A stretch of 64,000 bases of DNA, taken from assembly GCA_003153315.1 (NCBI GenBank), contig PLYA01000040.1, forward strand, positions 1 to 64,000. The letters run 5' to 3'. The notes beneath the pieces are model-generated. The model searched no databases. It saw only the letters and a program-made list of their open reading frames with translations, and was not told the origin of the DNA. Origin of the DNA: Bacteroidota bacterium. GTDB lineage: Bacteria; Bacteroidota; Bacteroidia; B-17B0; Aurantibacillaceae. Every line of letters starts with the position of its first letter. Position 1 is the first letter of the stretch. Made by a program: the position numbers and the translations under genes. Shown here piece after piece: positions 16,379 to 61,041 of this stretch.

Positions 16379-16613
16379 ATGGCTTGTATTATACCATACC
16401 GTTAACCTTTTCACAGCTCGATTTGCGTATCTTGCTTCTATATTAAACACTGAAATAACTATGAGAATTGATCTTTCTTATGATATTTTTGATCTAACAG
16501 GCTTGATTTTTACCCCAAGCTATCCTAAAATGTTAAATATTAACCCTAAAATTATAGATAATAGCCTAATTTATGTATATCTGTAAATTAAAATGCTTAA
16601 TTTTGATTATATA

Positions 16614-19600: not shown

Positions 19601-20249
19601 TGCAACGATATGTTATACCACATCGGGTAATTATTTGATACAACTTACATTAACAGATATAAACGGATGTGTGAATACGGCAACAGCTAATGTAATAACC
19701 TATCCGATTCCTGTTCCTGAGTTTGCTTATACACCAAATCCTGCAATGATTTTAACACCTAATATACAATTCCTTAATCAGTCGTCTGGAGCAATCATAA
19801 CAAGTTATAATTGGAACTTTGGCGATGCTTCGGGTATGGGTTCCACGTTATATAACCCTAATTATACTTATTTAGATACGGGAACTTATTATATTACTTT
19901 AACAGATACTTCTATTAACGGGTGTTCAGCAAGTATTGTAAAACCTCTTGTAATAGAACCTGATGTTACTTTATATGTACCTACTGCTTTTACGCCAAAC
20001 GGTGATGGAAAAAATGAAATTTTTAAAGCACAAGGTGATGGAATTCTTGCATTTAAGATGTACGTTTTTGATCGGTGGGGCAATACTGTTTTTACAACTA
20101 CTGATATTGATATTGGTTGGAATGGAAGGCGCAATAATACAGGAGGAGAAACAGTACAAGAAGATATATATGTTTGGAAGATAGATTTAAGTAATGTGAA
20201 TAATAAACAGGGCAGGTCTTATACAGGTATTGTTACCTTATTGAAATAA
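16614..20249 (+). CDS. Giant T9SS-secreted adhesin-like protein: NIDO, Ig-like modules, PKD, gliding-motility C-terminal domain
   Basis: 1211 residues from MKRLLLYIVVLLSFRNVYSQ, the signal-peptide Met; a possible TAATTTTG -7 box is at 16598-16605. Residues about 80-305 resemble a nidogen-like (NIDO) domain (GNISFGSSYSTFSP; MIAPFWGDVDT; YLIVQWDSVGVFDH; FQLIITDGTDP). There follow Ig-like modules of the same kind as in the previous gene (TICVGTTATLTAGGAVTYTW), two PKD-like domains (YNWNFGNGQ; YNWNFGDASG) and the gliding-motility-associated sorting domain about 1116-1211 (LYVPTAFTPNGDGKNEIFK). The last third aligns with the last third of the upstream gene even at the DNA level, for example around 15203 versus 19060, indicating duplication or gene conversion. 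It ends 2 bp from the convergent mpl stop. Confidence 0.9.
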   Translation: MKRLLLYIVVLLSFRNVYSQGVPYKISSDNYHKLKKEGKLTGGERIYNATGATQELHITNTSKESARNNTNNSVMATPCNCWIPRDGTFSAVPFDLGSPPYYSNDDGSTVGITLPFNFCLYGNTVGGASNQMYINNNGNISFGSSYSTFSPVGFPSSLYTMIAPFWGDVDTENPPTNGGVVYYKLTPTYLIVQWDSVGVFDHTGQVNTFQLIITDGTDPILPAGNNISFCYGEMQWTTGDASNGGGTGFDGTPADPATVGLNKGDGTTFTQIGQFGVPGSTYAGSTGISGVGWLAGQSFYFNSCGAGGNLPPVVTSGGPPSACVGDTLTICSIGGTLVHTVSFIPPSTSGSVSVTATSPSVGADFSVTNSTSGASASLTFQVNSTGLTAGYYTVTVTATNDVPLSTTINYIIHVVNGTSFPSPAIVVTPSVNCGSTPSVVTLTNSSSYTTYTWSTGATTPSITVANTSTVQVAVSQAGCVNTGSVAIQISPSPTITVNSPTICVGTTATLTAGGAVTYTWNPSATLSSDTGTIVTGTPTATTHYTVTGRDGNGCKDSTITTIAVNTSPTITATSSTICVGQQTATLTAGGAVTYIWNTGATTSTITASPITTTSYTVTGTSASSCTAIAVGTISVTPLPTTTVNLGTICPGNTTTLTAGGATNYTWTPNTGLTFTSNSVAVANPPTTTAYTIIGAIGTCTSLATTTVSIISAITPTVTSSTPCANQTLTLTCTPATYTNYAWSGPNLYTSAVPNPIRTGVTAADAGTYTLHVTDAGGCTNVAMVNVVVNPLPVVTANASPACLHQTVNLSCTPNGDIYSWSFGGVAFSNSQNPSIANVTIAATGQYEVTVTDGHGCSNGNTIQVSVYPLPIVTVASPLSICISSTGTLTASGALNYIWNPVTDLNSNVGNQVLLTPTSMPIHTYTITGQDANGCVNTAITSIIINELPIVSIAPDSTKGCTPQCATYTVMNNPAAKSYNWNFGNGQTKMFLPPNNTATICYTTSGNYLIQLTLTDINGCVNTATANVITYPIPVPEFAYTPNPAMILTPNIQFLNQSSGAIITSYNWNFGDASGMGSTLYNPNYTYLDTGTYYITLTDTSINGCSASIVKPLVIEPDVTLYVPTAFTPNGDGKNEIFKAQGDGILAFKMYVFDRWGNTVFTTTDIDIGWNGRRNNTGGETVQEDIYVWKIDLSNVNNKQGRSYTGIVTLLK

Positions 20250-46290: not shown

Positions 46291-46452
46291 CAATCATCGT
46301 CCTATTTGTTGTTCTTGAAAACTAGACCTAAGCTATAGTCAAAAATTTGATCGCTAAGAGATGTATTCTTATTTCTTGCTATTTCAGTTTACGGTACTCA
46401 AACTTGTATAATTTGATCTACTAAATTGAAAAAGTGACTCCCAAAAACACCG

Positions 46453-46483
46453 ACCCCCTGTTATAGTTGGAATAACAAGGGGT
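46453..46483 (-). terminator. Hairpin left of attL, probable ancestral terminator of the tRNA-Met
   Basis: ACCCCCTGTTAT and ATAACAAGGGGT form a stem of about 11 bp with one mismatch. On the minus strand it is followed by GTTTTTGG. It lies just beyond attL on the side where the tRNA transcript would have ended before the element entered, so it probably was the original tRNA terminator. Confidence 0.6.
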
Positions 46484-46497
46484 TTGAAACAGTGATA

Positions 46498-46512
46498 GTG
46501 CTCCCACTTGGG
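46498..46512. repeat. attL, 15-bp copy of the tRNA-Met 3' end
   Basis: GTGCTCCCACTTGGG is identical to 60967-60981 (15 bp), which is the 3' end of the minus-strand tRNA-Met gene. It is the left boundary of the integrative element. Confidence 0.8.
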
Positions 46513-46638
46513 ATATTTTGTCTTTCATACTAATTCTTTCATTTTCCTTTATATTCTTGTATCTGTTTGTATTTTAGTTATTTATACAAATTCAAAATGT
46601 TTCTAAAAGATTTTAAAAGAATCAAAATGAATAATAAC

Positions 46639-46658
46639 TTTACCCCGAAGTTTACCCC
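46639..46658 (+). other. Candidate integrase arm sites, left end
   Basis: Two TTTACCCC copies with their starts 12 bp apart (46639 and 46651), in direct orientation, about 130 bp inside attL and just before the integrase start. The same pair, TTTACCC twice with 12-bp spacing and the same GAAG linker, occurs near attR (60892-60910). Confidence 0.5.
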
Positions 46659-46672
46659 TAATAAAATCTAAT

Positions 46673-47875
46673 ATGTCGTCCATAGCACTCGTTTTCAGAA
46701 AAGACAAACTTAACAAATCAAATAAAGCACCGATAAATATACGCATTACCAAGCAAAGCCGGATCAGGTATTTATCCACGGGGCATTCCGTAAGTCTAAA
46801 AGACTGGGATTTTAAGAATAATAAAGTTAAGACATCCTATCCAAACAGTGCTCGGTTAAATAATATCTTATCGAACTTATTGGTAGATTATGATAACAAA
46901 CTATTGGATGTAGAATCAAAACGTAAACATATCACAGTAGATTCCATTAAGACTAAAATTAAAAGCAAAGACACTACACTGTTTTTTATCTATGCGAAAA
47001 AATACATTTCGAGATATGAAGCTAAAGGGAAAATTAGTTCACATAGAAGATCCAGTAGTATATTGGGAAAGCTCTCTGCTTACTGTAAGCATGAGGCATT
47101 AGTCATTGAAGAATTAGACTTTAAATTTCTAAACGATTACGAACATTACCTGAGAACAAAACTTAACAATAAAGATTCTACAATTCATACAAATATTAAA
47201 CTTATTAAAACCATCATCCTGAGTTATATTAAAGAAGGAAATATGTCATATGATAAAAATCCTTTTCTTCATTATAAAATAAAGCCTAATGCCCCAGAAC
47301 GGGATTACCTGAGTGAAGAAGAATTGTTGCGGATTGAAAACTTAAACTTAAAAAATGGTAGCGGCTTATACCATCACAGAAACATTTACATTTTTTCAGC
47401 TTATGCCGGAGGTTTAAGAATATCTGATGTTTTGCAATTAAAGTGGGAAAATTTTGACGGCGAAAAATTGTCCTTACGAATTCAAAAGACAAGACAAGCC
47501 TTGTCTATCAAGATACCAGATAAGGCTGTTGGAATTATTAAGCTTTATAAAAATAAAGATTCCGAACCGAAAGATTTTATTTTTCCTTTGTTACGTTGTG
47601 CTGATTTGAATAATGAATTAGAATTGTTTCGGGCCATATCTTCGGCTACTGCATATACGAATGGCGACTTGAAGGACATAGCCAAGCTTGCCAAGATAAA
47701 TAAAAACATCAGTTTTCATACGGCGCGACATACCTTTGCTACAAGGGCATTGCAAAAAGGGATGCGCATAGAATACGTTTCAAAATTCCTTGGGCACAAA
47801 GACATCCGGGAAACACAGATTTATGCGAAGATTATAAATAAAGAACTGGATAAGGCAATAGAAATTTTTAACTAA
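46673..47875 (+). CDS. int: Tyrosine-type site-specific integrase
   Basis: 400 residues, a length typical for Bacteroidota integrases with an N-terminal arm-binding and SAM-like domain. The catalytic residues are all visible: R249 (AGGLRISD), the HxxR block HTARHTFAT with H349 and R352, H375 in LGHKDI, and nucleophile Y384 in TQIYAKI. It lies 160 bp inside attL and reads inward. It is expected to integrate and excise the element at the tRNA-Met 3' end. Its stop overlaps the ATG of the next gene (TAATG), so the two are coupled. Confidence 0.93.
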   Translation: MSSIALVFRKDKLNKSNKAPINIRITKQSRIRYLSTGHSVSLKDWDFKNNKVKTSYPNSARLNNILSNLLVDYDNKLLDVESKRKHITVDSIKTKIKSKDTTLFFIYAKKYISRYEAKGKISSHRRSSSILGKLSAYCKHEALVIEELDFKFLNDYEHYLRTKLNNKDSTIHTNIKLIKTIILSYIKEGNMSYDKNPFLHYKIKPNAPERDYLSEEELLRIENLNLKNGSGLYHHRNIYIFSAYAGGLRISDVLQLKWENFDGEKLSLRIQKTRQALSIKIPDKAVGIIKLYKNKDSEPKDFIFPLLRCADLNNELELFRAISSATAYTNGDLKDIAKLAKINKNISFHTARHTFATRALQKGMRIEYVSKFLGHKDIRETQIYAKIINKELDKAIEIFN

Positions 47876-48711
47876 TGGATATAACCTCAATTGTGTTTCA
47901 CATTAATAAATTTGAATTAAATTATTTTGGAACTAAAGATTTTGCAACACAATTTAAAAACCAGGATGGTTATATAGATAGCCAAAAATTAAACATATAC
48001 CTGAATAGTTGTCTTTTTGAAGATTTCGGAAAAATGCAAAACCTTTTAATTCATGCTTCCGATGTAGCTCCTGTTGTAAAATTTATTCAATATTTATTAG
48101 ATAAACTTTGGGAACTTGAATATGCATGTGGAGAGACAATAATGGACAAACTTAATCCGGGTGTTAATGATGATATTCAACAAATTGCAAATAGTAAAAT
48201 GTTGGGGAATACATTTGGGGTTTCAAGTATGGAGAAAGATTACAAAAAAAGAGATGCTTTTATATATAGAGAAATTCTTAATAAGGTTTCCGATTATGCT
48301 TTTGATTTTAAAATGAAAATCAAAGGATTACTTTCTCGTTATGAAGATATTCCAATAATTAAAGAAGAACCTGCATTAATTATAGCAAATAATAGTTCTC
48401 AACTGGTTAAGGAAGCAGCAACTGCCAAAGAACCCGAATTGATAATAACAAGTGTTGATGACATTATAGCCATCATGTGTGCTTTAAGAGAGAGAAAAAT
48501 TATTATTACCGGTGAGAATGAAATAGAGCAGCCAACAAGCAAACAGTTAGCCGAGATCATTTTTAATAATTTTAAGGTAAAGAAGGATAAAGGCGAAGGC
48601 TTTTTCCCTTTTGATACTTTAGAAAGGTATTTTGGTTTAAAAAATGACGAAGTTTCAAAAGGCTCTAAGTTTCAAAAGCGTAAAAAGGAATTTTTAAAAG
48701 CTTTAGAATGA
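47875..48711 (+). CDS. Unknown element protein coupled to the integrase
   Basis: 278 residues, with an N-terminal helical domain (about 1-150), a flexible linker, and a C-terminal basic region about 225-278 (FFPFDTLERYFGLKNDE ... KFQKRKKEFLKAL) that looks like a small helical module ending in a Lys-rich tail. No motif I can name. Its ATG overlaps the integrase stop, so it may act in excision or control. The promoter region for the next gene contains a duplicated AACATCTTTC (about 48725 and 48751) that could be an operator. Confidence 0.6.
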   Translation: MDITSIVFHINKFELNYFGTKDFATQFKNQDGYIDSQKLNIYLNSCLFEDFGKMQNLLIHASDVAPVVKFIQYLLDKLWELEYACGETIMDKLNPGVNDDIQQIANSKMLGNTFGVSSMEKDYKKRDAFIYREILNKVSDYAFDFKMKIKGLLSRYEDIPIIKEEPALIIANNSSQLVKEAATAKEPELIITSVDDIIAIMCALRERKIIITGENEIEQPTSKQLAEIIFNNFKVKKDKGEGFFPFDTLERYFGLKNDEVSKGSKFQKRKKEFLKALE

Positions 48712-48810
48712 GGAAGGTAAAATAAACATCTTTCACCGGGACTTTCACTGAACATCTTTCCGCTTTTCGTGTAGCAATCTTTGCATAAATAATCATTTAA
48801 AAACGTTTTT

Positions 48811-49035
48811 ATGCAAACAAATTCACCAAACAGCGCGCAGGTACAAGAACCATTATTGTACACCACAGATGAAGTAGCCAGGATTTTCAGGGTATCCACC
48901 CGAACGATTCAAAACTGGCGGGATAAAGGGCAGATAGAGTTTTTGCAAATCAACCATGTTATTCTGTATAGCAAGAATGATGTGGACGAGCTTTTAAAGA
49001 AATACCATAGCAAAAGCAATTTCGGCAGGAAATAA
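48811..49035 (+). CDS. MerR-like helix-turn-helix protein, excisionase-type
   Basis: 74 residues. LLYTTDEVARIFRVSTRTIQNWRDKGQIEF is the HTH_17/MerR-like excisionase pattern: the recognition helix and the Trp-Arg-Asp-Lys-Gly wing are plain. It is small enough to be a recombination directionality factor. It lies between the integrase unit and the VapE gene and ends in a strong terminator at 49035-49069. The role as Xis is inferred from fold and location. Confidence 0.8.
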   Translation: MQTNSPNSAQVQEPLLYTTDEVARIFRVSTRTIQNWRDKGQIEFLQINHVILYSKNDVDELLKKYHSKSNFGRK

Positions 49036-49069
49036 AAAAGAGCAGCTATTTGCAGTAGCTGCTCTTTTT
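49035..49069 (+). terminator. Strong terminator after the HTH gene
   Basis: A perfect 14-bp stem (AAAAAGAGCAGCTA / TAGCTGCTCTTTTT) with a 7-nt loop and a closing T-run. It overlaps the HTH gene's last base. Confidence 0.85.
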
Positions 49070-49119
49070 ATTTTCTAATCCTATTAACCAATTAGAACTA
49101 TTTCTTATCAGCACATTGC

Positions 49120-50367
49120 ATGGACAAAAGTAATCAAAAGGAAGAAGCTGTTAAAGCTTATCGGGAAACTATTTTTCAGGTAACCGAAAAATACCTGCTC
49201 GAGCGATATGACATCCGGTACAATGAAGTATCCAACGATGCTCAGTATAAGTTAAAAGAAGAAACAGACTTTTACGAACTCAACAGCGATTCCTTGTATA
49301 TAAAACTACAAAACGAACGCATTAACATCTCACAACCTAAATTAATCTCACTATTAAAATCAGGATTTATGGAAAACCACAACCCCTTTAAAAATTATTT
49401 TGACAGAGTGTCAAAATCAGAACAAGTAAGCCAGCAGGATCATATCCAAAAACTGGCAAATTATGTAAAAACCTATAATCAGGAAAGATTCAACAGACAC
49501 TTTAAAAAAATGCTCGTGCGATCTGTTGCTTGTTCTTTAAACAACCATATCGTAAACAAGCAAGCCTTTATCTTAGTCCATAACAAACAGAACAGCGGAA
49601 AGACCACCTTCTTAAACTGGCTTTGCCCGATGGAGTTAAAGAGTTACCTGACAGAAAACATAGGTACCGATAAAGACAGCTTAATTGCTTTATGCGAAAA
49701 CTTCATCATTAACCTCGATGAGCTGGCCACCTTCAGTAAAATGGAAATCAACAGCTTTAAAAGCATGCTCAGCAAAGCCCATGTAAAAGTAAGAAGGCCT
49801 TTTGAGAAGAAAGCCGTTGTTACACCCAGACGCGCCAACTTTGTCGGCTCCACCAACAAAACGGAATTCCTGAACGATGAAAGCGGCTCGGTAAGATGGC
49901 TTTGCTTTGAAATAGACAGCATAGACTGGAACTATTCCAAAGAAATAGACATTGATTTGGTATGGGCGCAAGCATATGACTTATACAAAAACAAATTCCA
50001 TTACGAACTCACCGCGGGAGAAATAGAAGAGAACGAAAAGGAAAACAAAAAGCACCAAAGGCTAACCTTAGAAATGGATTTGATACAACGCTATTATTAT
50101 CCCGGTACTAAAACAGATAACGATGCCTTTTATACCGCTTCTGATTTTATGAAATACCTGCCGGAGAAATTAGGGGCATCTTTAAAAACTTCTGTAGAGA
50201 ATATCGGCAAGGGTTTAAAATCTTTGGGCTTTGAACAATCGCATAAATTCAACGGAGTTTATACGATAAAGGGGTATTATATAAAATTTAATTCTCATAA
50301 TGACCTTACTCAGTTACTCAATAATGATAAACAGATTGAAATTAAAGAACTTATACCGAGTGAGTGA
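49120..50367 (+). CDS. VapE-type SF3-like ATPase, without a primase domain
   Basis: 415 residues. The VapE core: Walker A NKQNSGKTTF with Gly160-Lys161-Thr162, then LTENIGTDKDSLIALCENFIINLDELATFSK with Walker B Asp200-Glu201, and KAHVKVRRPFEKKAVVTPRRANFVGSTNKTEFLNDESGSVRW, the motif C segment ending in the Arg-Trp. VapE proteins are the helicases of phage satellites and other integrated elements; often they are fused to a primase, but here the N-terminal 130 residues show no primase motif. The next 340 bp hold repeats suggestive of an origin. Replication of the excised element is inferred. Confidence 0.85.
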   Translation: MDKSNQKEEAVKAYRETIFQVTEKYLLERYDIRYNEVSNDAQYKLKEETDFYELNSDSLYIKLQNERINISQPKLISLLKSGFMENHNPFKNYFDRVSKSEQVSQQDHIQKLANYVKTYNQERFNRHFKKMLVRSVACSLNNHIVNKQAFILVHNKQNSGKTTFLNWLCPMELKSYLTENIGTDKDSLIALCENFIINLDELATFSKMEINSFKSMLSKAHVKVRRPFEKKAVVTPRRANFVGSTNKTEFLNDESGSVRWLCFEIDSIDWNYSKEIDIDLVWAQAYDLYKNKFHYELTAGEIEENEKENKKHQRLTLEMDLIQRYYYPGTKTDNDAFYTASDFMKYLPEKLGASLKTSVENIGKGLKSLGFEQSHKFNGVYTIKGYYIKFNSHNDLTQLLNNDKQIEIKELIPSE

Positions 50368-50425
50368 GTAAAAAAAATAAATTACTCAGTTACTCTGAAA
50401 ACTGAGTAAGTAAGTGAGCGAGTAA
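50306..50425. repeat. Iteron-like cluster and hairpin at the end of the VapE gene
   Basis: TTACTCAGTTACTC occurs at 50306-50319 inside the VapE gene and again at 50382-50395 just after it. GAGTGAGTGAGTAA (50358-50371) and GAGTAAGTAAGTGAGCGAG (50404 on) are inverted or permuted copies. A 10-bp stem TTACTCAGTT / AACTGAGTAA (50382-50391 and 50400-50409) forms a hairpin with an 8-nt loop. Such direct repeats plus a hairpin next to a replication helicase gene are a candidate origin. The gap up to the next gene at 50710 shows no other feature. Confidence 0.5.
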
Positions 50426-50709
50426 AGCCGTTTTTAAATTTTTTCACTTTATCTTTTTTATACGAAAATAGGCAGAAAGGATGTTTTAGAAATTGCCTGC
50501 GGCAAAGTGTTGGGGAAATAAGAAATGAAAAAAATACCAGATAATTCGACTTTAATGGATAGGTTATAATTAGATAAAATTTGGGTCTATCAAGAAGAGA
50601 ACACGTAAAACATTGGTTTTAAGCGTTCTGAAACAACGGCAGAGCCGATGTTGAATTAAGTGCTTGAATATCACTTGCATTAGTGGGAACTTTTTAATTT
50701 TTAGATAAA

Positions 50710-51564
50710 ATGGAGAAAAAAATAAGACAGCTTGAAAAAACAGATAAGGAATTACGGGAACAGAATTTTACCAAGACCCGGGTATCAAAAGCAGACATCA
50801 AATTGTTCGGGGAATATTGCAAGCAGCAACATATCTCCAAACTGGATGCTTTGCATGAGCTGATTCATTTCCTGCACGAAACGAATATGCCAATTTCCGG
50901 TTTGCATTTACAAAACGTCACCCAATTGGTCAGAAATTACCATAACTATACAGCAGGTGTACTAAAGAATTTTGAGAACAGTTTCCTTGATAAATTGGAT
51001 AAAAACCAAACGGATAATACGAAGTTCATAACCAATATCATGGAATTAATTCTGAAATTTAAAAGCATTGACAGTGTTATCAATGCGCAGAACTTTAAAC
51101 TTTTAAGAGGATTGATTCAGGCAACCATGGATGATGAAGATGCAGACGGCATACTCAAAGAAACCCTTTTGGAAGTTCGGGAAGCTGAACAAAAAGCTTT
51201 GCTCAGTGCAAACACAAATGCCCAACGGGAAACGTTTATTTTAGAAGGTGTGATAAAGGGGCAGATTCCGAAAATTAGCATCTCTGCCAAAGGAAATGCT
51301 TTATACCTCATGTTTACGTTGGCACAAAGTCCGGTAATAAATGCAAAAGTTATTTGGCATACTGTTATTATATGGGAGGGGCCATTAACCCAAGGGTTAA
51401 AACTTTCTACCGAAATCGGCATCAGAAATTACTTTGCAGGATTTAAAATAGGGGATACGGTAAAATTAAAGGGATTTACTATGGAGAGTAAGTACAAAGA
51501 CGAGAAAGACAAAGTATTTTTTAAAACAACCTATGTGGTAATGGAGGTAATAAGCCATAACTAA
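50710..51564 (+). CDS. Element protein with a BfmA/BtgA-like N-terminus and an OB-fold-like C-domain
   Basis: 284 residues. The N-terminal part (KTRVSKADIKLFGEYCKQQ, HISKLDALHELIHFL) is helical and resembles the ribbon-helix-helix start of BfmA/BtgA-type mobilisation proteins of Bacteroidota. The C-terminal half (about 175-284) has a five-strand pattern, PKISISAKGNALYLMFTLAQ through KLKGFTMESKYKDEKDK to FKTTYVVMEV, that looks like an OB fold, as in single-strand DNA-binding proteins. This suggests a DNA-binding role with VapE; both assignments are by eye and tentative. Confidence 0.5.
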   Translation: MEKKIRQLEKTDKELREQNFTKTRVSKADIKLFGEYCKQQHISKLDALHELIHFLHETNMPISGLHLQNVTQLVRNYHNYTAGVLKNFENSFLDKLDKNQTDNTKFITNIMELILKFKSIDSVINAQNFKLLRGLIQATMDDEDADGILKETLLEVREAEQKALLSANTNAQRETFILEGVIKGQIPKISISAKGNALYLMFTLAQSPVINAKVIWHTVIIWEGPLTQGLKLSTEIGIRNYFAGFKIGDTVKLKGFTMESKYKDEKDKVFFKTTYVVMEVISHN

Positions 51565-51695
51565 TTTAAACTAAAAGTAAATCGTTGGCTTTAGCCATTT
51601 TATCCATATATATGTATAACAGGAGAAGAAAGGAGTTTTTTCTTTCCCAATCCTATACCGCAGGTGCTATGTTAGGATATAGAAGCATTTAAGTG

Positions 51696-52481
51696 TCAGA
51701 ATACAATACCTAAAGCTATACGAATAATACTTCCATTTAGATTTAAACTTTTTATAGGAGTATTAATTACAGGTATTTGATGAGCACTATTCCGGCTTGG
51801 ACTTATAGTATACTGTACACCCGTTGACGACACATAGGTGTTTGAATACGAAGATGCAACGTTGCCATTAGTTTGTTGAGTACCAGTATAATAACTTAAA
51901 CCTAATCCACTTTCAGCTAAAATGAAAAGGTGTTTGCGCTCTATAAATTTAATACCTACTCCCATTACCAAGTTAAAGCTATTTATTCGTTGAGTTAAAT
52001 ACATCGTACTATCGTATGAAGTTTGTATATACCCTGAGGGATTATAGGAATTACTATAGGTTGTTGAACCATTTACTCGAAAGGTTTGATAGTAGACATC
52101 GGTAAATAAATAAACACTTGTTTTCTTAAACATGAAAAAAGAATGTTGAAACCCAACACTATATTGTCTTATTTTTTCCTCATTATCATATTGTGAAGCC
52201 CCTTTTGGAGTTTCACCGGCAGGTGAATTACTAAAAGCAAATGCCGACCTAATAGTATTTTTAGTGCTTACATAATACTTACATTCTAAGCCACCTGCAA
52301 AGAAAATACCGTTCTTATTGGTAGAATAATATGGTAAAGTAAATAACGTAACAGGAATTACACCAACCTCAAATTTTGGATTTCGAATCTTTGATAAGGA
52401 ATCTTTTTGGGCATCAGAATATTGACAACCAAATAACAATAATAAAAGAGTGTATCTAAAATTAAAAGCCATAAAATACAT
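51696..52481 (-). CDS. Outer-membrane barrel-like protein, element cargo
   Basis: 261 residues. Met4 (MAFNFRYTLLLLLF...) gives a cleaner signal peptide; it ends at about residue 24 (QYSDAQK). The mature part has alternating strands (KFEVGVIPVTLFTLPYY; FAGGLECKYYVS; YSVGFQHSFFMFKK; VYLFTDVYYQTFRV; SFNLVMGVGIKFIERK) and ends IIRIALGIVF, a terminal Phe usual for barrels. Family not recognised. It ends the minus-strand cargo of the element, 44 bp downstream of the next gene, and is convergent with the OB-fold gene. Confidence 0.65.
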   Translation of the reverse strand: MYFMAFNFRYTLLLLLFGCQYSDAQKDSLSKIRNPKFEVGVIPVTLFTLPYYSTNKNGIFFAGGLECKYYVSTKNTIRSAFAFSNSPAGETPKGASQYDNEEKIRQYSVGFQHSFFMFKKTSVYLFTDVYYQTFRVNGSTTYSNSYNPSGYIQTSYDSTMYLTQRINSFNLVMGVGIKFIERKHLFILAESGLGLSYYTGTQQTNGNVASSYSNTYVSSTGVQYTISPSRNSAHQIPVINTPIKSLNLNGSIIRIALGIVF

Positions 52482-52525
52482 TTGAATATAACGATTAATA
52501 AAATGAATTATTGTGCCAAAAGATG

Positions 52526-54052
52526 CTATCTCACCAACTCCAAAAAGCCTTTTAAATTTTTCTGCCCATTAGTTTTCCCATCCATATAGCTTATTACATA
52601 ATAATAAGCCCCTTCGCTGCAAAATATACCAGCTGTGGTATGCCCATCCCAAGCATCACTAACCATTCCCACATTATCTGTATTAAAGACTTTTGTACCC
52701 CACCTGTCATAAATAGTGCACTTATAATTAAGAATAGATAATTCACCGCTACTAACAATTAACTCCCAAGTATCATTTATACCGTCTCCGTTAGGACTAA
52801 AAATATTCGGTACGGAAATAATAGGGCTTTGGCAATAGTCAATATCTATAGTAACATTGCTGTAAGTAGTAAAGCAACTGTCTTTTACAGATAAAACATA
52901 AGTAGTATTGGCATGCGGGTAAACCAATACCTTAGGATTTTGGCTTTGCACAGGCTGCCAATTATAACTACACCAATTGCATGCATTATAAGTCCCTATT
53001 AATGCGCTATCTCCTATACAAATAGTAGTATCATTGCCTGCTTTGGCTATAATAGATATAGGTATATGTATAGTAAGGGTATCATAGCTAAAAATGCCGC
53101 ATTGCTGCTTTTTCAAAACATACGTAGTAGTTTTTTGAGGTTGTATAAAATTATCCAAGATAGTATCATTTGGCATTATACTGTTACTATCTCCATTTAG
53201 TACGCTCCATGTGAAATTTGCACCAAAAATCTGACTAATACCATTACCTAAAAGTATTGTACTGCCTTTGCATACGGTAGTATCATTACCTGCATAAGCA
53301 TTACTATATTCAACTAAGCTAACATCATCTACATAATAGGCACTTAAATAGTTATTAGGAGCGCAACACCAAAATGAACCCATTCCAGGAACAAAAACAG
53401 TATCAGTATTCACATCATTATAAAAATTACCTATGGTAATATAATTTTCTCCACCATTGGCAGTATAAGTACCCTGTATTGCCGTCCAGTTTGTTTTACT
53501 GGTTATAAAATTATGATAGGGATTTTCTACTTGCGGTGTAACTGAAATTAAATCTTGTGTGTAATTACTAACGGCATTTGGTGAAAAATAGCAACCAATT
53601 CTTGAGGTAGCATAATTTGAGGTAGAATCCTCTAGGCTCACAAAAAATGAAAGGCAATAGGTTTTGTTTTTTTGTAAACTATCTATTAATTGTGTTTGTA
53701 TATACTCTCTTACATTTGAACCGGAAATTGAATTTCCAAATCCCAATGTTTGTATGTTTGTATATCCTTTTCCTGTCTTTGCATATTGCCAACCTTCTAT
53801 ATTGGAAGGGACTGCAAATTCAGGATAAGGTAATGGTAAACATATAACAGTATCAACTTCGTTAAAAATGCAAGGACCATCAACATTTGTTGGATTTACC
53901 CATCCAGTGGCATCAGATATTGGGGCATACCCAGATGAACACGGGGGTGGAAAATTTTGTATGTTTTCAAAACTCCAATTGGGTACTAAATTATTTTGAG
54001 CAATACCTCTCCCTAGCCCCCCAAAAAGGAGAGGGAATAGGGATATATACAT
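52526..54052 (-). CDS. T9SS type B (gliding-motility-associated C-terminal) protein, element cargo
   Basis: 508 residues from the Met at 54052; the 15 residues upstream belong to the terminator hairpin at 54085-54123 and are not coding. The signal peptide MYISLFPLLFGGLGRGIAQ is encoded partly by a REP-like palindrome at 54006-54034. Residues 20-260 form a secreted N-domain with the NLVPNWSFENIQ pattern of carbohydrate-binding-like jelly rolls. The middle is Ig-like with NDTTVCKGSTILLGNG and NDTTICIGDSALIGTY repeats, and the C-terminal 97 residues are the gliding-motility domain ISVPNIFSPNGDGINDTWEL... with YDRWG. It is exported through T9SS. Ligand unknown. Confidence 0.85.
   Translation of the reverse strand: MYISLFPLLFGGLGRGIAQNNLVPNWSFENIQNFPPPCSSGYAPISDATGWVNPTNVDGPCIFNEVDTVICLPLPYPEFAVPSNIEGWQYAKTGKGYTNIQTLGFGNSISGSNVREYIQTQLIDSLQKNKTYCLSFFVSLEDSTSNYATSRIGCYFSPNAVSNYTQDLISVTPQVENPYHNFITSKTNWTAIQGTYTANGGENYITIGNFYNDVNTDTVFVPGMGSFWCCAPNNYLSAYYVDDVSLVEYSNAYAGNDTTVCKGSTILLGNGISQIFGANFTWSVLNGDSNSIMPNDTILDNFIQPQKTTTYVLKKQQCGIFSYDTLTIHIPISIIAKAGNDTTICIGDSALIGTYNACNWCSYNWQPVQSQNPKVLVYPHANTTYVLSVKDSCFTTYSNVTIDIDYCQSPIISVPNIFSPNGDGINDTWELIVSSGELSILNYKCTIYDRWGTKVFNTDNVGMVSDAWDGHTTAGIFCSEGAYYYVISYMDGKTNGQKNLKGFLELVR
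54006..54034. repeat. REP-like CCTCTCC/GGAGAGG palindrome inside a signal-peptide sequence
   Basis: CCTCTCC (54006-54012) and GGAGAGG (54028-54034) flank CTAGCCCCCCAAAAA. On the minus strand it reads CCTCTCCTTTTTGGGGGG then CTAGGGAGAGG, a common type of dispersed bacterial palindrome (CCCTCTCC...GGAGAGG). It lies in codons 7-16 of the T9SS gene's signal peptide (SLFPLLFGGLGRG). Confidence 0.55.
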
Positions 54053-54084
54053 TATAAAAACAACTTTATTCAATGCTACAAAAT

Positions 54085-54123
54085 AAAAGAGTGCCACTCT
54101 TTATACAAAAGTAGCACTCTTTT
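54085..54123 (-). terminator. Terminator after the giant cargo gene
   Basis: AAAAGAGTGC and GCACTCTTTT form a 10-bp stem with a 19-nt loop. On the minus strand it ends in TTTTATTTT. It lies 21 bp after the stop of the 2040-residue gene and before the start of the next gene at 54052. Confidence 0.7.
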
Positions 54124-54143
54124 ATGGGAACTAAAGACTTAAA

Positions 54144-57100
54144 TTATTTTAAAATAATTAGTTTATCTACTTGCATAACTACACCGTTCAACATTACTTT
54201 ATACATATAACTTCCACTATTAAGTGCACTTATATCTATATTATTTACATCCGTAGCCTGTATGGCTTTGCTATATCCAGTCTTTAAAACTAATTGCCCT
54301 ATGCTACTATAAATCTCTATTTCAGCTTTATCACCTTCATTTAGTTTTAAGCCCTGCATATATATCATATTATTGGCTGGGTTAGGATATACCTGTATAG
54401 TAGGTTCACTTACAATGGAAGTTTCAATAGATTCTACACGACTACTACTGCTAGATAAATTAGGTGGGTTAAGCGCTTCGCAGGTATTTATGTAGATTAG
54501 TGTATCATACAGGGTTAGCAGAGCTCGTGCTTTATATACCCCTTCGCCATATTCATAAGGGCAAAGAAGGGCAATAGTTCTTACATCCTGTACCTGTGCT
54601 ATGTTAAGGCGTTTTTTTGCTTTTTTATACGCAGCATACAGGTTGTTTATCTTCTGTAAATAAGCATCGTGCTTTCCTACCGGTATAAAGCTGTTATTTA
54701 TAGCTATGGCCTGATTTATTATACTGCTGTCGGTACCAGCATTCGCTAACAGCGTATCAGTTACTAATAACTTTTCATGTGATGAACCCACCATACTAAG
54801 CATATAGATATTAAGCACCGGATTAGCAGTATAAAAAGCAGCACCTGTATCTATTAATGCACGATATAAATCATGTTGATTACCATATATAGCGGTAGTA
54901 TCATAGTTGCTAAACTGAATAGAATCTAAAGCTATTTTTTGGGCTGTTGCAGGATTTAAAATGGGAGTACCCTTCCTAAAGCCGTTACAGTTAAAATACG
55001 GGGCACCCCTATGCAAGGCATAAGTGAGAATTGCAGCAGTTGGAGGTGCACCTGAATAAACAGATGGTAAAGGAACTTGAGTTCCACTGTTTGTATAATA
55101 AAAAGGAGAATAGTTACCATTGCTTCCATTTCCTGCAAAAAGTGCATCTGTCCAAGTATAAGTATTATCGCGGGTAAAAGTGTTACCACTACCAAGGCTT
55201 GCACTACCCTGCGTCCCAACCATACCATTGTCATCTAACCAAAAATTAAATGGCTGCGCATTATGAAAAGCATTACCTTCTATACTGGATGTATTGTTAC
55301 TGCCCGCGCAATACATAGAAACATCAGGTCCATCTATAGTATTACATAATATTTGACTGTTAGCGCTATTTATCATAACAATACCATCTTGACTATACAT
55401 CCAAGGTACACTTGATGTATTTGGAGCTTTTACAGTATTTAAAATAACCGATGAATTATTACAATTAGTTAATGATATGCCATAGGTAGCATTATTTTGG
55501 TCATTCGGCATACCATCAATTGTATTACTATTAATACTTGTATAGTAGGCAGATTGTACTTGTATACCTTTTTCATATCCATGTATAGTATTACCATAAA
55601 TACTAAAAGATATATAATTGGAACCATAATATGGATTTTCAAGTCCAAAACTTGTTACTGAAATAGCTTGGGGTGCATAAATAAAAGTGGAAGGTGTTTG
55701 AAATAAGGATTGCCAATATGTATTATATGAAGAAGATATGGTAAAATTATTATCAGAAGCACTTATAGAATTAATATCTCCGTAATCTAAAAATATAAGG
55801 TTAATCCCTTGTTGAAAGTGGTCTTTAAACGTATTATTGGTAATAGTTATAGGTTGGGATATTTGACTTGAATTTAAATCATTCATATAAATACCACTTC
55901 CTGTTGTGCCAGAAAAGGAGTTATAAGTAATATTAACCTGAGATTGACCATCTGGTTTTGCAATAATACCGTAATTAGAGTTAGTAAATGTACAACCTGT
56001 AGCAGAGCTTCCTCCTACATTTAATTGGGAACCAAAAAAGTTAATACCCGCCCCCACGGTAGCAGCAGGATTGCCCCCAGAACCTCCAAAATAATAATAA
56101 GGGTAATAAAAAGCTCCACCAACGGGATAACCATTCATATCTTTAACAGCATAAGCATAGTTCGTAATAAAGTTATAGTTGGGAGAAGGATAGGATAATT
56201 GTATACGATTAAAGGAACAAGAAGTAACATTTAAGTTACTAGTTGCTGGGGTATAATAGTCTGTTGCATAAGAAGAAGTATACAAATTATAAGGATTATT
56301 ATAGGAAATTATACCATCCACTAAATTATCGAAGTAACAAGAATTAATGGTATTAGTAGTGCCAAATGAAGTACTATTAGCTGCTATACCGCAAAAAGAG
56401 TAAAAATTAGGAGTATACATATAGTTATGCAAATAGTCTGCTGCAAGTCCGCCCGTGTTGTAATTCGGGGCATTAACCCTGTTCATGGTTATTCCGTTCA
56501 AACAGGAGAAAACACAATTAGAAGCTATAATAACACCAGAATTAAATAATTGATTAGTAGAAAAGTGATCATATGGCGAATCAGCATTTAAATTAAGCAT
56601 AGAATCGGGGTGCAAAGGGTCATAATCAGAAATAATACCTGCTGCACAACGATTAAACCAAGCATTGTTTAAAGTAACAACGGGTTGAGCTGCCTGACCA
56701 TTTGCTAGAAGCTCGCTCTGATAATTACTTATAGGTACACTACCATAAGCTATATTGACTCCATATATTGCATCTTCGATTAGTGAGTTTGTTACATTAA
56801 GATAAGGTGTTTGAGGATTGCCCGATCCAGTTAAAGCATATAACGTATTAAAACTAATTCCCTGCCACATATCACTACAAGCATAAATATGAGAATTAGT
56901 TATGTTTAAAATAGCACCGCCATCTACTACAATACTGGAGCCTGGGTTCATAATAAAGTTAACACCTTCAATGTTTGAGGTGCCTTCAAAGACTAATTGA
57001 CCTGTTACAAAATAATTCACAGTTTCGGCAGGATTTGTATTTATATAATTCACGCTATTTTGTACTGTATAAAAATTATAACCAGCAGGATAAATATTCG

Positions 57101-60100
57101 TGCCAAGATTATAATTTTCATGATGAGCAATATTTCTTCCAGCTGCACAACATTGTTCAATAACGATAGAAGTATTGCTATAACATCCTTGTGACTCAGT
57201 TGTAAGTTCCAATATGACATTTCCGGTTGCATGAGAGCAATTAATTAACACAGTAGGATCAGTCCCACCTGTTTGAATGGTAGCACCATTTGCCGGGTTA
57301 AAAGTCCACGAATAACTCTCATATCCATTAGGTGCTGCTGAGATGCTCACAAGAGAATTGAGAGCCTCGCATTGAAATGCGTATGGAACAGTAATAGCTG
57401 CCGGAGTATAACCAGTTGGATTGCTTATGGTAATACTTTTAGTAAAAGAGCAACCATTGACATCAGTAGCAACTACATTATAAGTAGTTGGAAAACTTGT
57501 TGGTGTTACAGAAATTGAACATGGATTAACACTACTTGCACAAGATTGGGTTACACCACCGCCGGACCAAACATAAGAATATGGAAGACCGCTAGCGCTT
57601 TCTGCTGTTAAAATAGCTGTTGCCCCTGGGCATATAATTGGAGTAGTGGTAGTTAAATTAAAATTAGCGTTGGGATAAACATGAATTACAGAAGTAGCTG
57701 GATTTGCACAGGAAGGAAGAACGCTTGATATAGTATAAACATTATTAATACCAGCAACTGGTGGAGTAATATTAAATGTGAAATTACTGCCTGAACCACT
57801 AATCTGATTATTATCTACATTATCTGTAACTAAGTAGCTATTAGCTCCTGATGCAGAAATCTGCACAGATTGACCATGACATATATAGTCAGATGAAGGA
57901 GTTACAACAATTGAAGATGAGGGACTAATAGGATGTAGTGTTATAATAGCTGGTTGACCAGCGCAGGTACTTCCTAAACCTGGCTCAATACTTATTTGGG
58001 ATACACCAGTAAGTTGTCCCGCACTAAATGTTGCAGAGGAACCTGATACAAGTGGTGGGTCTACCTCACTTCCCCCAATTAAGTTATGAAAATCGTAACT
58101 TGGATAGTTTGGGTCATTTATTGGAGTAATAGTTAATGGGTTTGCTGTACAATATGTTATACTAGTATTTGCAACTTGAACAGGATTTCCACTAAAGATG
58201 GAAAATGTTGTTGATGCAACTATTTGACTAGCAGCATTTACAAATTCTAATTGTATATCTAAATGTGTGCCAGGTGGTGCAGCAACATTTGTAGCATCTA
58301 CGCCAAGATAATAGCTGTTAAGAAGTAATGGTAAATTGAAATTAGTAGAGGTATAGCTTGACTGGGTTATATCCAGTATTTTCGTAGGGACACCATTAGT
58401 TTGGGCTATAATCCAAATTGCAACGTCAGTATGCCATTGGCTAATCGTGGCAGTTGAACTTGATAAAATTTTATAACTAATTCCATACCAATCAGCTGCT
58501 ATATATAAAGGATCTGCCCCAGCTAATCCCCTAGCTAGATTTGTAGATAGCCCTTGCGAAGCGCATTCGTTCTCCATATATAAATTGCCGCTTTGTGTCC
58601 TATAGGATGCATTGATGATCATTGACAATTGGGAGGAATCTGAACTTATGTGTTTTCTATTTAATTGAACATAGTATTGTTGCCCTTCAATCAAATTGGT
58701 TGTTATCACTTCATAAACTGAATCTCCATAAACAGAATTTGCTGTGTAGGATTGAACAAGGTTTAAACTAGAACAGCCCCCCCCATAAATGTTAATTATT
58801 TGGTAATCATCATTTTTATTTTGGTTATTATTAAATATAATAATTCTTGTTGTATCATTTTGAGCAGTAAATGAAAACCAGACATTATTCAAGTTTGTTT
58901 TTCCTGAAAAGGAATTACTATTAAAACTAGAAACATTATTTACTAATATTGGGTTAGCACATGAACTCCCTATTTGTGGATTAGATGCTGGAATTACCAT
59001 ACGCACACGGTTATTACCATAATCTGCTATAAACAGGTTTCCACTTGCATTAACTCCTAAAGCTGTTTCAGCAGGGAAATACAGTTCAGCAGCCGTAGCA
59101 GGCCCCCCATCTCCACTATAGCCCTGTGTGCCATTTCCGGCTATAGTACTTATAATGCCTGATGGATTTATCATGCGTACTACGTTATTATATAAATCAG
59201 AAATGTATAAATTCCCTGTAGCATCAAGGTCTAATCCAAACGGACCATTAAATTCTGCTGAAATCGCTTGCCCTCCATTTCCGGTATAGCCTGCTGTTCC
59301 ATTTCCGGCAAAAGTGTTTATAATGCCTGATGGGTTTACAATGCGTATTCGGTTATTATTACGGTCTGCTATGTATAAATTCCCTGCTGCATCAAAAGCT
59401 ACGCCTACCGGACCTGAAAATGTTGCATTAGTCGCTTGTCCGCCATCTCCACTAAAAGACTGAGTTCCATTACCTGCAAAGGTTGTTATGATACCTGAAG
59501 CATTTACCATACGTATCACATTATTACTATAATCTGCTATATACATATTACCTGTTGCATCAAAAGCTACGGAAGTTGGATTAAATAAGCTGGCATTAGT
59601 AGCCTGTCCACCATCTCCCGCATAAGTAGGGTTTCCATTACCTGCTACCGTAGTTATGATACCTGTACTTACTGTTACCTTACGTATGCGATACGTATAT
59701 TGGTCAGCTATGTATAAATTGCCTGCTGCATCTAAAGTAACTCCGGTTGGAGCTGCTAATTGTGCATTTGTGGCTGGTCCTCCATCACCTAAACTTGTAC
59801 CACCACCGGCTATAGTTGTTATAATTCCAGAAGGGCTTACTTGACGTATAAGATTATTCACCTGATCTGCGATATACATATTACCAGCAGCATCAAAAAC
59901 CACATCAGCTGGTCCGTTTAATGCAGCAGCAGTAGCTTGTCCACCATCACCGCTATAACCACCTGTGCCATTCCCCACTACGGTACTAATAATTCCGCTT
60001 GGTGTTTGTGCATTTGCATTTATACAAAATGCAATTATCACTAATAAGGCTAACAGTTTTTGTTTTAAAGAAAATTCAAAATTGTTTTTGTGTAAACTTT

Positions 60101-60266
60101 TTACACAAGGTGCGGCGGTGCATGGCACAGGCGGCATTGGATGGTTCTTTGTTTCCATAAACGTTTGTTTTTTGAGTGAATAAAATTGAGATATGCTTTC
60201 TTGATTGCTTACGCGAGATGTGTCGCCGTTTGACACTTGCGATTTTGAGGTCGTTACTGTTTCCAT
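54144..60266 (-). CDS. Giant (2040-residue) NHL-propeller/beta-helix T9SS protein, element cargo
   Basis: Signal peptide at about 70-87 (LLALLVIIAFCINANAQ), preceded by about 70 polar residues including MPPVPCTAAPCVKS; Met37 (60158) is an alternative start. Residues about 88-430 hold six NHL repeats of 53-57 residues, each of the form GIIxTxAGNGTxGYSGDGGxATxA...DAAGNLYIADxxNNRIR. Then a Cys/Ser domain, Ig/PKD-like modules about 790-1070, a right-handed beta-helix about 1075-1690 rich in N-x-F and SxxGCxFxNxxYGI turns, and a type A T9SS sorting domain at the C-terminus (IQVYPNPANNMIYM). It is the largest gene in the element and is predicted to be surface-displayed. It could bind or degrade a glycan, but no catalytic motif is seen. 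Its terminator is 54085-54123. Confidence 0.88.
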   Translation of the reverse strand: METVTTSKSQVSNGDTSRVSNQESISQFYSLKKQTFMETKNHPMPPVPCTAAPCVKSLHKNNFEFSLKQKLLALLVIIAFCINANAQTPSGIISTVVGNGTGGYSGDGGQATAAALNGPADVVFDAAGNMYIADQVNNLIRQVSPSGIITTIAGGGTSLGDGGPATNAQLAAPTGVTLDAAGNLYIADQYTYRIRKVTVSTGIITTVAGNGNPTYAGDGGQATNASLFNPTSVAFDATGNMYIADYSNNVIRMVNASGIITTFAGNGTQSFSGDGGQATNATFSGPVGVAFDAAGNLYIADRNNNRIRIVNPSGIINTFAGNGTAGYTGNGGQAISAEFNGPFGLDLDATGNLYISDLYNNVVRMINPSGIISTIAGNGTQGYSGDGGPATAAELYFPAETALGVNASGNLFIADYGNNRVRMVIPASNPQIGSSCANPILVNNVSSFNSNSFSGKTNLNNVWFSFTAQNDTTRIIIFNNNQNKNDDYQIINIYGGGCSSLNLVQSYTANSVYGDSVYEVITTNLIEGQQYYVQLNRKHISSDSSQLSMIINASYRTQSGNLYMENECASQGLSTNLARGLAGADPLYIAADWYGISYKILSSSTATISQWHTDVAIWIIAQTNGVPTKILDITQSSYTSTNFNLPLLLNSYYLGVDATNVAAPPGTHLDIQLEFVNAASQIVASTTFSIFSGNPVQVANTSITYCTANPLTITPINDPNYPSYDFHNLIGGSEVDPPLVSGSSATFSAGQLTGVSQISIEPGLGSTCAGQPAIITLHPISPSSSIVVTPSSDYICHGQSVQISASGANSYLVTDNVDNNQISGSGSNFTFNITPPVAGINNVYTISSVLPSCANPATSVIHVYPNANFNLTTTTPIICPGATAILTAESASGLPYSYVWSGGGVTQSCASSVNPCSISVTPTSFPTTYNVVATDVNGCSFTKSITISNPTGYTPAAITVPYAFQCEALNSLVSISAAPNGYESYSWTFNPANGATIQTGGTDPTVLINCSHATGNVILELTTESQGCYSNTSIVIEQCCAAGRNIAHHENYNLGTNIYPAGYNFYTVQNSVNYINTNPAETVNYFVTGQLVFEGTSNIEGVNFIMNPGSSIVVDGGAILNITNSHIYACSDMWQGISFNTLYALTGSGNPQTPYLNVTNSLIEDAIYGVNIAYGSVPISNYQSELLANGQAAQPVVTLNNAWFNRCAAGIISDYDPLHPDSMLNLNADSPYDHFSTNQLFNSGVIIASNCVFSCLNGITMNRVNAPNYNTGGLAADYLHNYMYTPNFYSFCGIAANSTSFGTTNTINSCYFDNLVDGIISYNNPYNLYTSSYATDYYTPATSNLNVTSCSFNRIQLSYPSPNYNFITNYAYAVKDMNGYPVGGAFYYPYYYFGGSGGNPAATVGAGINFFGSQLNVGGSSATGCTFTNSNYGIIAKPDGQSQVNITYNSFSGTTGSGIYMNDLNSSQISQPITITNNTFKDHFQQGINLIFLDYGDINSISASDNNFTISSSYNTYWQSLFQTPSTFIYAPQAISVTSFGLENPYYGSNYISFSIYGNTIHGYEKGIQVQSAYYTSINSNTIDGMPNDQNNATYGISLTNCNNSSVILNTVKAPNTSSVPWMYSQDGIVMINSANSQILCNTIDGPDVSMYCAGSNNTSSIEGNAFHNAQPFNFWLDDNGMVGTQGSASLGSGNTFTRDNTYTWTDALFAGNGSNGNYSPFYYTNSGTQVPLPSVYSGAPPTAAILTYALHRGAPYFNCNGFRKGTPILNPATAQKIALDSIQFSNYDTTAIYGNQHDLYRALIDTGAAFYTANPVLNIYMLSMVGSSHEKLLVTDTLLANAGTDSSIINQAIAINNSFIPVGKHDAYLQKINNLYAAYKKAKKRLNIAQVQDVRTIALLCPYEYGEGVYKARALLTLYDTLIYINTCEALNPPNLSSSSSRVESIETSIVSEPTIQVYPNPANNMIYMQGLKLNEGDKAEIEIYSSIGQLVLKTGYSKAIQATDVNNIDISALNSGSYMYKVMLNGVVMQVDKLIILK

Positions 60267-60460
60267 AGTTTTTCGTGTAGGGTGTTTATAGGTAAGTTAT
60301 ATGCTCTTATTTATTTTACAACATCTTTTATTTACTTGTGAAATCATCTGAATTTTAACGCAAATTAACTTTTATATTCTGTAAAACAAATTTTTCTCAT
60401 ATTATCAAATTGTTAAGTTTTAGTAAAACGGTATAGCAAATATATGTTTATTTTTTAAAT

Positions 60461-60487
60461 AGCCCATACATGGGCTTTTTCTTTTTT
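60461..60487 (+). terminator. Terminator-like hairpin just upstream of the XRE gene
   Basis: AGCCCATACATGGGCT (6-bp stem, 4-nt loop) followed by TTTTCTTTTTT on the plus strand. No plus-strand gene precedes it, and the XRE start follows at 60504, so it may attenuate or insulate that gene's transcription. Confidence 0.55.
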
Positions 60488-60503
60488 AAGAACAAAGCAA
60501 ATA

Positions 60504-60764
60504 TTGTATGTGCAAAACGTAGTAGATAAAGAGTTTTTAATTGCCCTCGGAAATAGGGTTCGTGAACTACGCTTACAAAAAAATATTACTCAAGAGGAGT
60601 TAGGTTTTTTAATTGGTAATTCCGGTAAACAAATTGGCCGTATTGAACGAGGTGAAAACAATGTAAGCTCCTGCATGCTCTATGCTATATCTAAAATACT
60701 AAAAATTCAGCTTAAAGAACTTTTTGATTTTGAAGTAAAAAAGAAAAGAAAGTCTAAGTCTTAA
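60504..60764 (+). CDS. XRE/Cro-type helix-turn-helix regulator, element
   Basis: 86 residues; the start is TTG at 60504 or GTG at 60510. The HTH is LGNRVRELRLQKNITQEELGFLIGNSGKQIGRIERGENNVSS with the classic Q-x-x-L...IxRxExG pattern. The tail is basic (KKKRKSKS). It is next to attR and is a plausible regulator of the element, perhaps of the giant cargo gene, which begins 240 bp away on the other strand. The A+T-rich sequence between holds no obvious operator palindrome. Confidence 0.75.
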   Translation: MYVQNVVDKEFLIALGNRVRELRLQKNITQEELGFLIGNSGKQIGRIERGENNVSSCMLYAISKILKIQLKELFDFEVKKKRKSKS

Positions 60765-60891
60765 TTGGCACGAGCAAAAAAATCTTAAAATTACTATCAA
60801 AGATTTGTTTGATGCTTTCATTGCGCATTACCTTTTTGTAGTTTTAGAGCTTAAATAGTGGGGTTTAAAATTTTATTTTTTAATAAAATAA

Positions 60892-60910
60892 TTTACCCGA
60901 AAGTTTACCC
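60892..60910 (+). other. Candidate integrase arm sites, right end
   Basis: TTTACCC at 60892-60898 and 60904-60910, starts 12 bp apart, joined by GAAAG. Matches the pair inside the left end (46639-46658) in sequence, spacing and orientation, about 70 bp inside attR. Confidence 0.5.
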
Positions 60911-60922
60911 TTAAAATAAAAA

Positions 60923-60951
60923 AGCCTTGCAAACTATATGTTTACAAGGCT
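60923..60951 (-). terminator. Terminator of the tRNA-Met gene, supplied by the element
   Basis: AGCCTTGCAAAC / GTTTACAAGGCT is an 11-12-bp stem with one mismatch and a TATAT loop. On the minus strand it is followed by TTTTTTATTTTAA, and it is 17 bp from the tRNA 3' end. It lies inside the element and so replaces the one now at 46453-46483. Confidence 0.8.
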
Positions 60952-60966
60952 AATTACATTCTTTAT

Positions 60967-60981
60967 GTGCTCCCACTTGGG
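60967..60981. repeat. attR, 15 bp in the tRNA-Met 3' end
   Basis: GTGCTCCCACTTGGG, identical to attL at 46498-46512. 60968-60981 lies in the acceptor stem and T arm of the tRNA, so the element restores the tRNA sequence. Confidence 0.8.
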
Positions 60982-61041
60982 CTCGAACCAAGGACCCTCA
61001 GATTATGAGTCTGATGCTCTAACCAACTGAGCTATAGGAGC
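60968..61041 (-). tRNA. tRNA-Met (anticodon CAT)
   Basis: 74 nt without CCA. Acceptor GCTCCTA pairs with TGGGAGC, discriminator A. The D arm is GCTCAGTTGGTTAGAGC, the anticodon loop CTCATAA with anticodon CAT (61005-61007 on the plus strand), and the T arm CTTGG-TTCGAGC-CCAAG. Elongator Met is more likely than Ile-CAT from the overall shape, but the latter is not excluded. Its 3' end is the att site of the element, and it has its own promoter at 61056-61086. Confidence 0.93.

Follow-up and report, generated by a model that had tools for sequence, protein, structure and literature searches.

A probable integrative element at a tRNA-Met gene of a Bacteroidota bacterium, with type IX secretion proteins in its cargo region

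We analyzed a 64,000-nucleotide stretch of DNA (contig PLYA01000040.1, positions 1 to 64,000; hereafter the window) from a Bacteroidota bacterium of the Aurantibacillaceae (assembly GCA_003153315.1, our genome G000). In it, a segment bounded by two copies of the end of a tRNA-Met gene carries a tyrosine integrase, a VapE-like helicase and proteins with sorting domains of the type IX secretion system (T9SS). In all likelihood this segment is a non-conjugative integrative element that relies on a helper for transfer and has a variable cargo bay, filled here with T9SS proteins. At the level of sequence, we document the element, its ends and modules, the sorting signals of its cargo, its recurrence in related genomes and a host gene for SprA. 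The features are collected in Table 1.

Results

The core sequence GTGCTCCCACTTGGG (plus strand) corresponds to the last 15 bases of an intact tRNA-Met(CAT) and recurs at the distal end, giving an element of 14,469 bp when one core copy is counted. These two copies were the only matches in the window at up to two mismatches, compared to 0.01 expected in shuffled sequence, and the only exact copies in the 4.14-Mb genome; the congeneric genomes G003, G004, G005 and G006 each have one, at the tRNA. A pair of arm-type repeats lies further in, with TTTACCCCGAAGTTTACCCC directly before the integrase gene and TTTACCCGAAAGTTTACCCT just inside the tRNA end (two matches in 64 kb, 0.02 expected). Terminator hairpins are present at both ends, that on the tRNA side being brought by the element itself, and joining the flanks in silico gave back an intact tRNA-Met with a hairpin behind it, which is also the arrangement at tRNA-Met of G003 and G006. 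An earlier reading of the window, made from its sequence alone (the sequence-only reading), had described a tRNA-integrated element with 15-bp attachment (att) repeats, an intact tRNA and integrase, Xis-like and VapE genes. Our data bear this out: the repeat of the tRNA 3' end bounds the integrase-bearing segment, the core counts in window and genome agree with it, and the genes have Pfam and PHROG matches. The arm-type repeats, the hairpins at both ends and an XRE regulator at 60504 were absent from that reading.

The genes for integration and replication lie on the plus strand in the order integrase, orf278, HTH_17, VapE and orf284, while the XRE regulator adjoins the tRNA. The integrase keeps the R/HxxR/H/Y catalytic motifs. 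An open reading frame (ORF) of 270–340 aa stands after the integrase gene in many relatives, as orf278 does here; orf278 itself had no family match in Pfam, NCBIfam, PHROG or PADLOC, and an RteC-like identity was considered without any family being matched. No family or relative of orf284 was found in Pfam, NCBIfam, PHROG, plasmids, phages, IMG/VR or the loci that we fetched. Short GAGT/AAGT repeats just 3' of VapE, seen in the window, in G005 and in locus L130, are a candidate origin of replication. A short stretch after VapE (50464-50518) is conserved in locus L148 (1536-1591) as KIGRKDVLEIACGKVLGK and falls within a possible 39-aa ORF in G005; it could be either a coding remnant or a small peptide.

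Next to these genes is the cargo. Two proteins carry C-terminal sorting domains that score over the curated cut-offs, one of type A (PF18962 and TIGR04183) and one of type B (PF13585 and TIGR04131), so the NHL/beta-helix and type B T9SS proteins named in the sequence-only reading are both confirmed. The NHL part of the giant type A protein is 67% identical to a 1766-aa protein of the related element in G005, its closest relative, and the two sequences diverge after the NHL part. Paralogues of the NHL domain with 57–61% identity occur elsewhere in the host. The giant protein may be chimeric, with an NHL head from the element and a tail from the chromosome. A 5'-truncated relative (77% identical) of its residues 1115-2040 lies beside kdsB at 1551-4307 of L046 (G005 contig C223), a short contig without an integrase. 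Because the signal peptide starts near residue 68, the start of the 2040-aa ORF was probably called too early, and an internal ATG (M37 or M44) is a likely start. The host has the T9SS translocon gene SprA (SprA_N, 1.2e-149).

The third cargo protein, of 261 aa, had been called a barrel protein, which we could not confirm: it matched neither a PorP_SprF domain nor any other family (Pfam at E 0.01, NCBIfam), and its structure model was unusable (mean predicted local distance difference test score (pLDDT) 36). It is 38% identical to an ORF on contig C42 of genome G002. No phage structural, conjugation or relaxase genes were recognized among the proteins of the element in Pfam, NCBIfam or PHROG, in line with the earlier description of cargo in place of a phage or conjugation module, and the 278-, 284-, 261- and 523-aa proteins had no PADLOC match. 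Outside the element, at 10784-20249, the window also has a tandem pair of giant CHU_C (type B) proteins, 1864 and 1218 aa long.

Table 1. Features of the element and its attachment site, in window coordinates.
Feature	Position	Strand	Evidence
Displaced flank hairpin, tRNA-Met terminator once flanks are joined	46421..46497	-	-23.4 kcal/mol over 77 nt
Distal att core GTGCTCCCACTTGGG	46498..46512	.	sole second copy in genome
Arm-type repeat TTTACCCCGAAGTTTACCCC	46639..46658	+	comparable position in eight related elements
Tyrosine integrase, 400 aa	46673..47875	+	Pfam Phage_integrase 1.6e-23, Arm-DNA-bind_5, Phage_int_SAM_5; 90% identical to G005
Accessory orf278, 278 aa	47875..48711	+	C-terminal 118 aa 59% identical to G005
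HTH_17 excisionase-like protein	48811..49035	+	Pfam HTH_17 2.2e-12; PHROG excisionase 4.6e-10
VapE-like helicase	49120..50367	+	PF05272 1.3e-34; 89% identical to G005 C14, 64% to L130
Iteron-like GAGT/AAGT repeats, candidate replication origin	50402..50427	+	comparable cluster, same place, in G005 C14 and L130
orf284, 284 aa	50710..51564	+	structure model mean pLDDT 37
Exported 261-aa protein, possible outer-membrane barrel	51696..52481	-	N-terminal signal-like sequence, C-terminal Phe
Type B T9SS protein (CHU_C), 523 aa	52526..54097	-	PF13585 1.3e-19; TIGR04131 above cut-off
Giant type A T9SS protein (NHL propeller, beta-helix, Por_Secre_tail), 2040-aa ORF	54144..60266	-	PF18962, TIGR04183
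XRE/HTH_3 regulator	60504..60764	+	Pfam 3.6e-11; relatives in G005 (32%) and G467 (37%) elements
Second arm-type repeat TTTACCCGAAAGTTTACCCT	60892..60911	+	
Stretch with element-borne tRNA-Met terminator hairpin	60900..60966	-	-20.2 kcal/mol
tRNA-side att core	60967..60981	.	core search of window and genome
tRNA-Met(CAT), attachment gene, intact	60967..61041	-	ARAGORN; Rfam, 71.3 bits

Close relatives of the integrase were found in 11 of 87 genomes of the order and 15 of 395 of the class. Both ends could be mapped for nine elements, the window's included, and the other eight integrases are 40–47% identical to that of the window. Their targets are tRNA-Met, tRNA-Glu (two), tRNA-Cys, tRNA-Arg, tRNA-Lys (three, one of them assigned from a tRNA-Lys core sequence) and tRNA-Val. 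The architecture of the ends is constant: in all nine elements the core lies 174–202 bp upstream of the integrase gene, and arm repeats of 10–21 bp lie before that gene and about 50–78 bp inside the tRNA end. The arm repeat itself (TTTACCC, TGTTTTACC, TGTTGTACC or TGTTTCCCA) differs among elements and matches between the two ends of one. In L136 the core GTGGTCCCACTAGGA is present at both ends; a 14-bp repeat, CAAAAACCCCATCT, had been considered there as att and was dropped, as it sits within a T9SS gene.

The cargo of these relatives varies. Elements in G019, G216, G168 and G051 share the integrase family, core position and arm repeats with the window, but type I restriction-modification (G019, G216), MmeI (G168) or OLD (G051) replaces the T9SS genes. 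In G467, a metagenome-assembled genome of a pond Cytophagaceae, two NHL/T9SS proteins are encoded within a closed element of 22.5 kb at tRNA-Val. The arrangement that the sequence-only reading had proposed to look for, a similar element with T9SS cargo, thus recurs in G467 and in G005. At two other loci the picture is less complete. In G142 (L201/L202) the integrase is disrupted, the giant T9SS genes are frameshifted and there are type I restriction-like genes (gene names read from the sequence, not from family searches), with an arm repeat near +19.4 kb where no tRNA was found; no att-like repeat was found at G002 C42 (integrase 32% identical, with an NHL remnant). The closest relative outside these genomes is L130 (integrase 58%, HTH_17 63% and VapE 64% identical), in which a MobV (Mob_Pre) relaxase directly follows VapE, at the place of orf284. 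L129 and L130 are Bacteroidota-type contigs publicly labelled Saccharibacteria and Sphingomonas, and are likely misnamed or mis-binned.

The congener G005 offers the nearest comparison. On its contig C233, a 14-bp version of the core and a TTTACCCC repeat stand before an integrase gene whose product is 90% identical to that of the window. Contig C14 has a VapE 89% identical to that of the window, and on contig C315 tRNA-Met is succeeded by an arm-like repeat, XRE regulators and several T9SS proteins in a row. C14 stops inside a T9SS repeat common to C315, where 59 bases at the contig end are identical, and together the contigs carry at least 10 T9SS C-terminal domains. The simplest reading, with the order of the contigs inferred, is that G005 has one large element in the same tRNA with a different and larger T9SS array. 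T9SS genes at this locus without an integrase or repeat, which the sequence-only reading had named as evidence against itself, are not what G005 presents, since its genome holds the integrase and the 14-bp core. On the left side, G005 has cox where the window has murA, suggesting independent insertions or a chromosomal rearrangement there. In G004 (contig C7, L110, about 7443-7830), part of tRNA-Met is duplicated about 300 bp away, and the 3' side has other genes including a possible integrase; this arrangement may be another sign of recombination at tRNA-Met.

Discussion

We propose that the tyrosine integrase recombines the 15-bp core at the 3' end of tRNA-Met, using arm-type sites (TTTACCCnnAAGTTTACCC) about 50–130 bp inside each end, and that the tRNA gene would stay functional because the element brings a copy of the tRNA end and a terminator with it. 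The HTH_17 protein would act with the integrase as an excisionase to release a circle, the VapE helicase would replicate it, and a helper would supply transfer. The region between helicase and tRNA would serve as a variable cargo bay. Here it carries the giant type A protein with its NHL part and the type B protein, both of which the host T9SS could export to the surface; in relatives, different T9SS proteins, restriction genes or other defence genes take their place.

Several observations weigh against this proposal. No transfer gene was found in the element, and its GC content is only slightly below that of its surroundings. In G005 the element has to be pieced together from three contigs (C233, C14 and C315). 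The murA-side flank of the window is syntenic with no relative, and an empty murA–tRNA-Met site, sought in congeners, could not be read directly because murA, pheS and tRNA-Met are differently arranged there. Finally, genes with type A sorting domains are very common in the host (at least 150, compared to 124 in G005 and 15 in G467): 14.5 kb of the host is expected to hold 0.5–0.9 of them, so the one found matches the background density. The sequence-only reading had spoken of a new surface protein; given this expectation and the NHL paralogues in the host, the protein is new only in part. Because the single type A gene of the element is unremarkable at the density of its host, the recurrence of T9SS genes in related elements weighs more than this one element alone. 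The G467 element has 2 of the 15 type A genes of its genome against 0.12 expected (P 0.006), and the G005 contigs have 10 against 0.87 expected (P 3e-8, with tandem copies that are not independent). This comparison covers related elements with mapped ends and is not a full survey of cargo.

How such an element would move bears on what it is. It could be an integrative mobilizable element (IME) that has lost its relaxase or retains only an origin of transfer (oriT), and that is moved in trans by a resident conjugative element; we consider this quite plausible, if somewhat short of probable. The MobV relaxase after VapE in L130 favors conjugative mobilization over packaging, although the window element itself has no relaxase family among its proteins (Pfam, NCBIfam; other relatives were not systematically searched for relaxases). 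No oriT was identified either, and the sole region that we folded with one in view, the gap at 50368-50709, folds only weakly better than shuffles (z -1.97). A phage satellite resembling the phage-inducible chromosomal islands (PICIs), with integrase, Xis and VapE-based replication, packaged by a helper phage and carrying the T9SS proteins as morons that alter the host surface, seems to us rather unlikely. The size of the element and its integrase–excisionase–helicase order are satellite-like, its VapE/Pri-Rep replication module is found in PICI-like satellites, and VapE homologues are frequent in phages (515 phage records). Such helicases also occur on plasmids, however, no terminase or capsid-remodelling gene was recognized (Pfam, PHROG), orf278 and orf284 had no PHROG match, and the relatives of the integrase in IMG/VR are all distant. 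With no packaging gene here and a relaxase in the nearest outside relative, the satellite-like label of the sequence-only reading was not borne out.

It could also be argued that the integrase half and the T9SS half arrived separately at the same tRNA and that an intervening core was then lost, in which case the T9SS genes would not be cargo of the integrase. In favor of this, the genus is rich in T9SS genes, the truncated relative beside kdsB in G005 matches the C-terminal part of the giant protein, and the identity of the integrase and VapE genes to those of G005 (89–90%) differs from that of the cargo. Yet the window has no third core, the only arm repeats are those that bracket the unit as a whole, G005 has the same modules with T9SS genes adjoining tRNA-Met, and G467 has T9SS genes and integrase within one closed unit. 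Altogether, we regard separate arrival as improbable and favor a single helper-dependent element.

Islands with a tyrosine integrase at a tRNA are known in Bacteroidota, for example the 10K island of Riemerella anatipestifer in tRNA-Arg and the NBU-type elements (PMC6764341). The window element resembles these islands and IMEs in its tyrosine integrase, att repeat at a tRNA, small size and lack of conjugation genes; its core is 15 bp, compared to 53 bp in the Riemerella island, and it differs in carrying T9SS surface cargo and a VapE helicase and no relaxase. With VapE-bearing satellites of the PICI class it shares an integrase, an excisionase-like HTH protein, a VapE-type helicase and a regulator, but it has no recognized packaging or interference gene, and its regulator lies at the far end, not divergent from the integrase gene. 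Type B sorting-domain proteins are known to pair with PorP-like (PorP/SprF) barrels (PMC9143113). The window likewise has a type B gene followed by a gene for a candidate outer-membrane protein, although the 261-aa product has no PorP/SprF match and is short for a 14-stranded barrel. Our literature search, with subscription papers outside it, found reports of Bacteroidota tRNA islands and none with T9SS surface proteins as cargo.

More speculatively, and as an idea that we hold with considerable doubt, the window element may belong to a lineage of helper-dependent tRNA elements with T9SS surface proteins as regular, swappable cargo, a strategy that could be termed ‘surface conversion’. The core and arm-repeat signature allows such elements to be delimited exactly in genomes. 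Bacteroidota surfaces bear many T9SS proteins, and the turnover of that repertoire is poorly explained; horizontal exchange of surface proteins gains a concrete, testable route in a family of integrases that bring giant T9SS proteins or defence systems into one cargo position. If surface conversion is real, these elements would alter the exposed proteins of their hosts, affecting for instance attachment or phage access, as their kin alter restriction systems.

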